IMG/VR virus record: IMGVR_UViG_3300033991_000321
Coordinates: 1-44,408 of that record
Length of the DNA stretch: 44,408 bases
Direction: 5' to 3' (one strand)
Source: a virus
Positions 28,582-43,696 of this stretch are shown here, piece after piece. The notes beneath the pieces were generated by a model that searched no databases, had not been told where the DNA came from, and was given only the letters and a program-made list of their open reading frames with translations. Position 1 is the stretch's first letter. Each line of letters opens with the position of its first letter. A program made the translations under genes and the position numbers.

Positions 28582-28728
28582 TCAACTCCTTGTTTGTGAC
28601 TCCAATTTTCCGGCTGACCAAGTGAAAGTCAACGTGAATTTTAGAGCCTCACCTTCATACGCCTCGAGCTTTTGCGAGGTGACATCCGTATTCCAACTTA
28701 GCGAGATTTTCGAGATATGATTAGGCAT
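28582..28728 (-). CDS. Small late protein, paralogue of the fibre C-terminal domain
   Basis: A 48-residue protein whose centre (WNTDVTSQKLEAYEGEALKF) is clearly related to the end of the upstream fibre protein (WNGDETLDTLKAYEGDTLLF). Its ATG overlaps the TAA of that gene by three bases, with GAGG four bases upstream. It is probably a duplicated small beta domain that binds or caps the fibre. Confidence 0.7.
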   Translation of the reverse strand: MPNHISKISLSWNTDVTSQKLEAYEGEALKFTLTFTWSAGKLESQTRS

Positions 28729-29248
28729 CTGTCCTCACAATCTCCTTCAACGTTTTATCTTCATTATAACTATACGTGAGCGTGAAGAGCAAGGTGTCGC
28801 CTTCATAAGCCTTCAAAGTATCTAAAGTCTCATCACCATTCCAGGTATACTCTTGCTTCGTGATCGTTTTTCCCTCTGGCGGCAACATAATGCCAAAGAA
28901 GTCTTGACTCAAAGTATCAAGATCTGCCTGAGTGGCAAAATCCGGCGTGTGAAATTCGTTCCCATGCTCAGCCATTCCGCCCCCGCTACCGCCTCCTCCA
29001 GCACTTTGACCCTTCGCGATCAATTCATTAGCATGAAAACCATCGACCATGTCAGCATCTAACCCGGATCCGTGGCCTTGAGGCAAAGCCTCCAACAATT
29101 CCTGACTTTTCTTCGCCTTCTCAGCCATATTGACTAAACGTCGATTCCGTTCTAGCAGCTGCTCAGTTGTTTCCTCGACTGCCTGGCCCTGCCGCATCAG
29201 AATCAACCTGCGGTTCTTTTCAACTAATGCCTTAAGATCTTCACTCAT
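28721..29248 (-). CDS. Coiled-coil fibre protein
   Basis: From the ATG at 29248, with GGAGGAGAGG five bases upstream, the protein has 175 residues. The N-terminal half is coiled coil (KALVEKNRRLILMRQ, EQLLERNRRLVNMAEKAKK). Then comes GLDADMVDGFHANEL, a motif typical of phage fibres, a glycine-rich linker and a C-terminal beta domain shared with the next small gene. It likely forms a trimeric whisker or tail fibre. Confidence 0.75.
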   Translation of the reverse strand: MSEDLKALVEKNRRLILMRQGQAVEETTEQLLERNRRLVNMAEKAKKSQELLEALPQGHGSGLDADMVDGFHANELIAKGQSAGGGGSGGGMAEHGNEFHTPDFATQADLDTLSQDFFGIMLPPEGKTITKQEYTWNGDETLDTLKAYEGDTLLFTLTYSYNEDKTLKEIVRTDA

Positions 29249-30254
29249 CAAAACCTCTCCTCCAACCCGCGACAACTATTTCCCAAGGCTCACTCTGGGA
29301 ATAATCCCACCGCACAGCAAAATCCCAATCCTGATAAGCCTTAAGCTTCTCGGTAAACCAACCAACAGAAAAATTATGCAAATGCAAAGGCTTAGTCTCA
29401 CGCATACATGACAAATATTCTCCATTCGGGCACCTAACCTCAATCTGCTCTGCAGAAACTCGCGTCAGTTCACGCAAAAACAGTTCAGGATCAACTAAAT
29501 GCTCAATCAAATGCCAACTGTAAGCCTTTTTCACTGACCCGTCTCGAAAAGGCAAATGACACGCATCAGCCTTAACAAAATTCTTGATTTCATGCACATG
29601 CAAAGCGACATCATCATTAACCCGCTGATCCACACACCTATGCGCTGTAGCCTCAACAAACAAATCAACATTCACATCTCCCTTAGGCCTATGACCACAG
29701 CCAACATCCAAGATCCCAAATTTACCAATCATTGGTAAAGGCCACTCTGGCAAGTGCCCACACAAGACACAACCATGAACCTTCGCCACAAACCCGTGAC
29801 TTTGCACATCGAAGAGAAAAAGGATATCCTCACCGAGCCCACGCTCATATTTGAAGCAGATTCCAGCCTCGAGAACCCTTCGCTTGATTAATGTGCAACT
29901 GAGACCCGCGAAAACCCAGCCACTTAAGATCTGGCGTTCAACCACGCTTCTCGGCAAATACCAAACCTTCTTGTTTCCATCCATGAAGCCACAGATCAAA
30001 GCGTTCGAATCATCATGCCGAGGCACAACGCCCTGAGCAACATCAACATTCAAACCGAAAAGTTTCTCAAAAGAGCCCAAGGGCACTTCAACGTCACCCT
30101 GAACAATCCACAAATAATCAAAACCGCCCTTTAGAGCTCGTTCGACAAGCAAATTCTGCGCATCCACAATACCAAGCAAACCCTTGTCACGTTGAGGTGG
30201 CGTAACAAAAACCTCATGCTCCACGCCTATCATAGCCCGCTCAACGTGGCGCAT
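29241..30254 (-). CDS. GT-A glycosyltransferase fused to SAM methyltransferase; N-terminus probably encoded upstream
   Basis: From the first standard start (ATG 30254) the protein has 337 residues. The GT-A part has VQGDVEVP as the metal-binding motif and GEDILFLFDVQSHGF as the acceptor-side motif. A class I methyltransferase follows (ILDVGCG, then HLIEHLVDP). However, the frame is open for about 28 more codons upstream and encodes the expected first strand, KVKILVGIPS, without any ATG, GTG or TTG. Translation of a complete fold therefore needs either a non-standard start or a -1 shift from the preceding gene at AAAAAAG (30344-30338). It may modify the capsid or a host glycan. Confidence 0.85.
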   Translation of the reverse strand: MRHVERAMIGVEHEVFVTPPQRDKGLLGIVDAQNLLVERALKGGFDYLWIVQGDVEVPLGSFEKLFGLNVDVAQGVVPRHDDSNALICGFMDGNKKVWYLPRSVVERQILSGWVFAGLSCTLIKRRVLEAGICFKYERGLGEDILFLFDVQSHGFVAKVHGCVLCGHLPEWPLPMIGKFGILDVGCGHRPKGDVNVDLFVEATAHRCVDQRVNDDVALHVHEIKNFVKADACHLPFRDGSVKKAYSWHLIEHLVDPELFLRELTRVSAEQIEVRCPNGEYLSCMRETKPLHLHNFSVGWFTEKLKAYQDWDFAVRWDYSQSEPWEIVVAGWRRGFDE

Positions 30255-30319
30255 AACATCCTCTCGATAACCGCGAAAACGATCATTATCCCTCAGACTT
30301 GGAATCCCAACCAGGATCT

Positions 30320-30550
30320 TTACTTTGTCTTTTTCGACTTTTTTGGTTGCTCTAAAGGGCTCTCAGTATTCACTTCCGCAGCGGGCTCTAACTTGGCAGC
30401 CGGAACCTCAACCTTTAGAGGCTTATCAATACGCTCAAGCCAAGACTCACCCTCATAAGTCGCAGGTAGATCTACGATCTCGCCCGGCAGGTGCGTTACG
30501 CCCTTTGCATCAGTGAAACCATGAACCTTCGGCAATATCCTAAACTTCAC
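30320..30550 (-). CDS. Capsid-adjacent small protein with slippery site near its end
   Basis: A 76-residue protein with a GTG start and AAGGAGG six bases upstream. The first 45 residues (MKFRILPKVHGFTDAKGVTH, then LPGEIVDLPATY) resemble small proteins often encoded after a capsid gene. The rest is a proline/alanine/lysine linker. The codons CCA-AAA-AAG contain A-AAA-AAG in the correct phase for a -1 shift. A shift would join the first 71 residues to 365 residues of the glycosyltransferase-methyltransferase (436 in total). Without a shift, translation stops six codons later. Confidence 0.75.
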   Translation of the reverse strand: MKFRILPKVHGFTDAKGVTHLPGEIVDLPATYEGESWLERIDKPLKVEVPAAKLEPAAEVNTESPLEQPKKSKKTK

Positions 30551-30588
30551 CGTATACCTCCTTTCAGATTTGTTGGAACGAACTCTAC

Positions 30589-30626: not shown

Positions 30627-31505
30627 TTAAGTCAGCCCTGTTATTTCGCAAATCGATGTGGGTCTGTTGATGCGCGGCGCCACGACTTCGTATACTTTGC
30701 CGTTGATGTTCATGTCTTCATCCTGCTGCATGAAAGTCGTCAAGTCTTGGCCGACTACCATCTCGAAATTCTGTTGCCCGGGCTCAACAACCAATGCGCC
30801 CGTGGTCAATCCACCGCTAGTGTAAAGCTGATCCGTAGCGAAGATACCAGCTTTCACGAGTTCAGCAACCTTTTCGAGATAGAATATCCCAGTGTTCGCT
30901 ATCAACGCCCGCAACTTTGCAATCCAACTTGTACGCGCCACCAGCGCGTATGGTCCATAGTGCTTATCCGTTTCAAGTTCTCCGATCGCAGCGGCAACAT
31001 CAGTAATCGCATTTGCAGGCCACGCTCCAGCACTTGCCTTCGTATTTCTGCCAGTCGCCGTCATAAGGCCCTCAATGCCGAGAGCCCTGAAACCAGTGTA
31101 CTCTCCAGATAACATGCACTTGTCCTCTTCCTCAGCACATTGCACACCAGCACATTCCACAGATCTCGTCTCTATCGGTAATCCGCCATAGCGACTTGCA
31201 ATCACATCTCTCCAGTACAGTAAAAATTCTTTGTGGATAACGGGGACCTTCACGGGGATGGCTTCAAGTTGAATCCGGTCCTTCACTTGTGTTATGCCAT
31301 GCATATCGATGGTTGCTTGACCCATATCCGTCTCTTTCCAGGCTTTAACACTGGTAAAACCCGCATGCGGCAACCTGAAAATCGGAAACAGTCGACGAGC
31401 AACCAGCGCGGGACGCACCGCTTCGATTAGCCGAGTGTCAATGTACGTGAGTTCCTCATCAGTCAATTGACCCGTTTCTACGCCAACACGTCTCAAAGTC
31501 TTCAT
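30627..31505 (-). CDS. Major capsid protein, encapsulin-like HK97 fold
   Basis: A 292-residue protein. The opening (LTDEELTYIDTRLIEAVRP, then LVARRLFPIF) and above all the C-terminal part (HYGPYALVARTSWIAKL, VVEPGQQNFEMVVGQDLTT, RINRPTSICEI) match the family-1 encapsulin pattern that I know, such as GPYALV and LVVGQDL. Its position after protease, scaffold and cement genes fits the major capsid protein. An internal cysteine-rich loop (VECAGVQCAEEEDKC) is unusual and may form disulfides or bind metal. No cargo enzyme lies beside it, so a viral capsid is more likely than a cellular encapsulin. Confidence 0.88.
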   Translation of the reverse strand: MKTLRRVGVETGQLTDEELTYIDTRLIEAVRPALVARRLFPIFRLPHAGFTSVKAWKETDMGQATIDMHGITQVKDRIQLEAIPVKVPVIHKEFLLYWRDVIASRYGGLPIETRSVECAGVQCAEEEDKCMLSGEYTGFRALGIEGLMTATGRNTKASAGAWPANAITDVAAAIGELETDKHYGPYALVARTSWIAKLRALIANTGIFYLEKVAELVKAGIFATDQLYTSGGLTTGALVVEPGQQNFEMVVGQDLTTFMQQDEDMNINGKVYEVVAPRINRPTSICEITGLT

Positions 31506-43519: not shown

Positions 43520-43592
43520 GCCGGGGTGAGGTAGCCTGGTAGCCCATAGGCCTGTGGAGCCTAGCGCCCGGGTTCAAATCCCGGCCCCGGCC
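43520..43592 (+). tRNA. tRNA-His (anticodon GTG)
   Basis: The acceptor stem GCCGGGG/CCCCGGC has seven pairs. The anticodon stem TAGGC/GCCTA surrounds the loop CTGTGGA with anticodon GTG. The T arm is CCGGG-TTCAAAT-CCCGG. A genomic G at 43519 can serve as G-1 opposite the C discriminator, as expected for histidine tRNA. CCA is not encoded. The D stem has one weak pair. It lies 137 bases upstream of the first viral gene and is a likely integration target. Confidence 0.95.
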
Positions 43593-43696
43593 CTCACCAT
43601 TTTCTTGGAAAGAACATTGATTAAGAACCGTTGAGCTTGTTTGAACTTTTTGAGTTGCCATGTAATCTAGGATGGAGTCTAGAGCTTGTTCTGTAA

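Follow-up and report, generated by a model that had tools for sequence, protein, structure and literature searches.

A candidate family-wide −1 frameshift linking a glycosyltransferase to a capsid-adjacent protein in tailed viruses of Bathyarchaeia

One family of the tailed viruses of Bathyarchaeia, which are uncultured sediment archaea, very probably uses a conserved programmed −1 ribosomal frameshift to fuse a glycosyltransferase to the small protein encoded next to the major capsid protein; judged from the sequences of related loci, we put the probability of this reading at roughly 85%. Most ribosomes on the small gene would terminate at its own stop, giving a protein of 71–88 aa, and a fraction would move back by one base at A_AAA_AAG, or at a close variant of it, in the lysine-rich tail and enter the −1 frame. 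The product would consist of the small protein, a Lys-rich linker and a GT-A glycosyltransferase, with a class I methyltransferase at the end in most cases.

The window analysed here is a single metagenomic IMG/VR virus record (IMGVR_UViG_3300033991_000321), taken as one stretch of 44,408 nt. On its minus strand lie, in order, genes for a portal, a protease, a decoration-like protein and the major capsid protein, then the 76-aa small gene and the glycosyltransferase–methyltransferase. The capsid protein (30627–31505, −) is HK97/encapsulin-like, with a Pfam match to Linocin_M18 (PF04454) at E 4.4e-31 and a PHROG assignment as major head protein; the Linocin_M18 match is far better (E 4e-31 against 1e-9) than that to the phage capsid profile PHROG 264. 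The small gene (30320–30550, −) starts with GTG behind the Shine–Dalgarno sequence GGAGGT (30556–30561, −), whose duplex with the anti-Shine–Dalgarno is calculated at −11.4 kcal/mol, and its Lys-rich tail ends at TAA 30322–30320. By way of contrast, the gene that follows the enzyme (28721–29248, −) is conventional, with an ATG at 29248, the Shine–Dalgarno sequence GGAGGAG and a duplex of about −10 kcal/mol. A tRNA-His gene (anticodon GTG) is found at 43520–43593 (+), at the edge of the virus record.

Read in the zero frame, the 3′ end of the small gene is CCA AAA AAG TCG AAA AAG ACA AAG TAA. The initial annotation of this DNA had correctly located there an in-phase A_AAA_AAG (30338–30344, −), the proposed shift site, with the stop six codons on. 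A second, weaker in-phase site, G_AAA_AAG, lies at 30329–30335 (−), and A_AAG_TAA at 30320–30326 (−) is a possible backup, at which the lysine codon could re-pair in the −1 position while the A site holds the stop. Across the same region, the −1 frame is ACC AAA AAA GTC GAA AAA GAC AAA GTA AAG ATC CTG GTT GGG ATT CCA, which translates as T K K V E K D K V K I L V G I P. As had been claimed, this frame is open and in register with the glycosyltransferase; it extends (29241–30362, −) from just after TGA 30365–30363 to TGA 29243–29241 and reads KKVEKDKVKILVGIPS... The further claim that it lacks any ATG, GTG or TTG upstream of position 30254 holds as well, and the ATG found there is codon 23 of the core of the enzyme, a core conserved among the loci as [KRSH][VI]L[VIA][GA][VI]P. 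In the predicted structure, strand 1 occupies residues 8–12 of the −1 product, so that a start at this first ATG would remove the strand, as the annotation had reasoned. The predicted fusion has the 436 aa given for it (71 + 365), and a peptide spanning its junction would be SPLEQPKKVEKDK.

Related loci, all of them metagenomic, were gathered by scanning viral contigs and also archaeal genomes; enzyme, small protein and capsid protein each served as a query. Small gene and enzyme occur together in 21 distinct loci, namely the window (WIN), L007–L018, L020, L022, L025, L027, L067, L069, L070 and L074, with L019 being a sister of L018 and L022 a Bathyarchaeota metagenome-assembled genome. The identity between the glycosyltransferase domains averages 55%, with a minimum of 30% and no pair above 90%, in a comparison that includes L030, where the genes are fused. 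The enzyme is in the −1 frame relative to the small gene in every one of the 21. The comparison of related loci that the annotation had proposed thus bears it out, since divergent relatives keep the A-run in its phase, the −1 register and the lack of a start. A more distant virus, whose capsid protein is 43% identical, again has a glycosyltransferase in the −1 frame of the upstream gene (L117:5154–6505); it has no start before KVFVGIP, the only candidate being a GTG inside the core, its upstream gene encodes a different, longer protein, and there is no standard heptamer. Neither the enzyme nor the L030 fusion has a relative among the isolated phages of INPHARED.

On the predicted models and by profile, the −1 product of the window is a GT-A fold joined to a class I SAM methyltransferase. 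The AlphaFold model of this product (pLDDT 77.6) shows a GT-A domain (29736–30320, −) and then the methyltransferase (29244–29726, −), and that of the L030 fusion (pLDDT 74.5) likewise contains a GT-A domain. Foldseek places STIV A197, human ColGalT1 and GalNAc-T2 among the best PDB matches of the glycosyltransferase half (probability 1.00), and many SAM methyltransferases among those of the second half. D82, within D-V-x-V, and H195 are invariant in the glycosyltransferase alignments, which have no exact DxD; in the methyltransferase, motif I is LDVGCGH and the match to Methyltransf_11 (PF08241; E 1.2e-7) is above the cut-off. The methyltransferase half is missing in L020, L022, L025, L027, L069 and the fused L030, which makes the glycosyltransferase the constant part. 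As to the small protein, that of the window has no match in Pfam or PHROG, DUF7210 (PF23843) included. A homologue, L111, that occupies the corresponding position behind a related capsid gene passes the DUF7210 cut-off, with a score of 32.6 against 27, and shows no frameshift; through it, the window protein may be a remote relative of DUF7210.

The setting of these genes suggests what the fusion may be for. Binding to the capsid or procapsid is the probable task of the small domain, in which case the fusion would carry the enzyme there, and the capsid is a putative substrate that the fusion probably glycosylates and methylates. Because the locus follows the capsid gene and STIV provides a precedent, capsid glycosylation is the most probable function of the fusion, the small domain then serving for targeting. 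A sugar-transferring and often methyl-transferring enzyme would in this way be brought to the capsid in sub-stoichiometric amounts, and the capsid surface modified. We regard such a capsid role as evenly poised. A real frameshift serving another target is rather unlikely and is the strongest of the alternatives; here, the small domain would be a stabilising leader and the enzyme would modify host glycans, the S-layer or something else. It draws on two loci in which the gene right after the capsid gene encodes a glycosyltransferase that begins at its own ATG, carries a Lys-rich leader at the N-terminus and lacks the small domain (L021:3755–4483 and L035:3899–4639), from which it follows that the small domain is not required for catalysis. 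Against it, almost every locus has the enzyme beside the capsid gene, the family as a whole retains the fusion, and in L030 the small domain and the enzyme form one uninterrupted ORF of 280 aa. The existence of this single-frame version also indicates that the viruses tolerate the fusion and that it presumably works. In a bacterial-type phage glycosyltransferase (L034:3818–4717), a C-terminal segment resembles the small capsid-adjacent proteins, reading GPGEVVMLTEDAARVLMGRQAV... and ending in a Lys/Arg tail; this is the same domain pairing in reversed order.

How the enzyme is translated was judged from what precedes it. Between the upstream −1 stop and the core, 19 of the 21 loci have no ATG, GTG or TTG. 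A standard start at that place in relatives, which the annotation had set against its own proposal, is accordingly absent from these 19 and is present, as GTG only, in L013 and L016, where it overlaps the TGA stop exactly at the core; both of these loci retain the heptamer and neither has a strong Shine–Dalgarno sequence. Every small gene has a strong one (median duplex −11.4 kcal/mol), and the enzyme has none before it (median −3.75 against −11.4 kcal/mol, Mann–Whitney U p 6e-8; −0.1 in the window). Having neither a start nor a ribosome-binding site, the enzyme would exist mainly or only as the fusion. A downstream ATG, GTG or TTG as the true start was considered and rejected, its location being unconserved, anywhere from codon 2 to codon 119 of the core. 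There is little to recommend translational coupling, in which ribosomes would re-initiate at an overlapping GTG, or at a near-cognate GTA, ATA or TTA, and make a separate enzyme. The two overlapping GTG codons would suit it, as would the ATA or GTA found at that position in several other loci. GTA and TTA are very poor initiation codons, however, and the lack of both a canonical start in 19 of 21 loci and a Shine–Dalgarno sequence argues against it. Moreover, in eight loci (L012, L014, L017, L018, L020, L025, L027 and L069) the stop of the small gene lies inside or beyond the start of the core, and stop/start re-initiation is ruled out there by that position. Coupling also leaves unexplained why the heptamer is enriched so far above background.

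That enrichment is the second line of evidence for the frameshift. An in-phase A_AAA_AAR stands in the tail of the small gene in 16 of the 21 loci, and three more (L008, L012, where the site was read by hand, and L069) have G_AAA_AAG as their only type of site. The remaining two, L011 (CCA AAA TCA) and L070 (TCG AAA AGG), have no good heptamer, yet the frame is kept and the start is missing. The spacing from heptamer to core is six codons in 13 of 20 rows, and in 9 of 21 loci A_AAR directly precedes the stop and may offer a second chance to slip. Of the 165 Lys-Lys codon pairs in other parts of these loci, just 7 (4%) have the A_AAA_AAR context. Homologous small genes with no enzyme downstream have an in-phase site in one of ten cases, that one being L114, with A_AAA_AAA just before the stop and a −1 frame that soon closes. 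Both tests, Fisher's for 16/21 against 1/10 (p = 0.0012) and the binomial for 16/20 (about 2e-14, assuming independence), are indicative only, as the loci are related. On these counts, A_AAA_AAG in the tail of the small gene exceeds chance. The small gene of L078, which like L006 has no enzyme, retains the VPLE motif and the Lys tail and not the heptamer. The glycosyltransferase tree is poorly resolved, and no one clear origin of the heptamer is visible in it.

The same A-runs bear on the question of which machine slips, and we infer that it is the ribosome and not RNA polymerase. If the polymerase added one A, mRNAs with seven A would encode the same fusion, with an identical peptide product, and the runs of six to nine A (nine in L017 and L018) would lend themselves to this. 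Most of the runs have only six or seven A, however, the G_AAA_AAG sites hold just five, and the phased A_AAA_AAG with its closing G is a ribosomal hallmark, which leaves transcriptional slippage very improbable. An assembly or sequencing artefact, in which indels in the homopolymer of a single virus contig would have split one gene or misaligned two normal ones, can be dismissed: the 21 divergent loci that share this register come from a Bathyarchaeota genome and numerous metagenomes; the viral contig L025 and L125, a locus in another genome of the class of L022, are identical over 3651 bases, though possibly from the same sample; and a −1-frame stop immediately before the run, as in L017, permits no other reading.

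Programmed −1 frameshifting commonly, and not as an absolute requirement, involves a 3′ stem-loop or pseudoknot, and some prokaryotic cases have a Shine–Dalgarno-like stimulator on the 5′ side. The downstream stem that the annotation had hoped for did not materialise as a conserved element: folding locus by locus, under a model of simple stems, gave z-scores scattered around 0. Notable hairpins occur only in L011 and in the pair L020/L025. In L011, a very stable hairpin comes just after the stop of the small gene (L011:4000–4080; z −4.8 for 60 nt and −5.5 for 80 nt), and the locus also has A_AAG_TAA, where the P-site lysyl-tRNA could slip; the hairpin behind this site may be a frameshift signal that makes up for the missing heptamer. 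The hairpin common to L020 and L025 lies about 11 nt 3′ of the heptamer and includes a compensatory pair. No consistent upstream Shine–Dalgarno-like stimulator was found, the values 5′ of the heptamer being variable (median −4.65 kcal/mol, −2.7 in the window). The upstream CCCTTT was rejected as a conserved RNA signal because it is kept as a Pro-Leu peptide motif that persists in L078, which has no enzyme; its counterpart in L017 and L018 is CCC TTA.

According to a 2021 review, the only archaeal −1 frameshift so far demonstrated is that of fucA1 in Saccharolobus solfataricus, at A-AAA-AAT, and the predicted cases include haloarchaeal viruses (PMC8211752). A 2016 review (PMC5009743) adds a magnesium chelatase with A_AAA_AAR and counts A_AAA_AAG as one of the heptamers most prone to shifting in E. 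coli. The viral loci have in common with fucA1 archaeal translation, an A-rich heptamer and a −1 shift joining two ORFs. In contrast, fucA1 is a cellular gene, known in interrupted form from two strains only and with a stem-loop and rare codons, whereas the viral arrangement is kept throughout a family, lacks a conserved stem and brings together two different domains. The heptamer A_AAA_AAG and its phase are also those of bacterial dnaX, but the shift there leads to early termination and is accompanied by a Shine–Dalgarno-like element and a stem-loop, while in the viruses it would lengthen the protein considerably, and neither element was found in conserved form.

Among viruses, the gpG/gpGT tail chaperones of tailed phages and haloarchaeal viruses likewise pair a gene of the structural module with a −1 shift and a minor extended product, and shifts of this kind have been proposed for HVTV-1, HCTV-1/2/5 and Hardycor1 (PMC5009743, PMC7911831). 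Those genes lie upstream of the tape measure and gain a non-enzyme extension, whereas ours follow the capsid gene and would gain a glycosyltransferase. T7 gene 10A/10B (−1) and Listeria phage PSA (+1) make head proteins with a frameshift-made C-terminal extension; there, the capsid protein itself is extended and no enzyme is involved, unlike in the present loci, where a small neighbour protein would acquire an enzyme of 200–365 aa. STIV A197 is an essential viral glycosyltransferase, and the STIV capsid protein is glycosylated (PMC10551542). It resembles the viral enzymes as a GT-A protein of an archaeal virus and is the best structural match, and differs from them in being free, with a single domain, neither fused nor recoded, and in coming from a virus of an unrelated kind. 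The main texts of a survey of Bathyarchaeia viruses (PMC10848311) and of one of archaeal proviruses (PMC11705971) mention no frameshift, and no description of a frameshift-made glycosyltransferase fusion was found in the literature searched, which largely excludes subscription journals.

If the frameshift is real, it would be an archaeal −1 frameshift conserved across a whole viral family, with some twenty natural variants of the shift site; given that there are also variants without a good heptamer, without the enzyme or fused in one frame, archaeal recoding becomes directly testable. Start-codon annotation truncates or misses the enzyme in these viruses. More tentatively, the recoding could be a family-wide switch that determines on how many copies of an accessory protein bound to the capsid the enzyme is present; virions would then hold a fixed few tethered enzymes, and these would cover the capsid with (methylated) glycans. 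If true, attaching a modifying enzyme in this manner to a protein encoded beside the capsid would be a new use of frameshifting.
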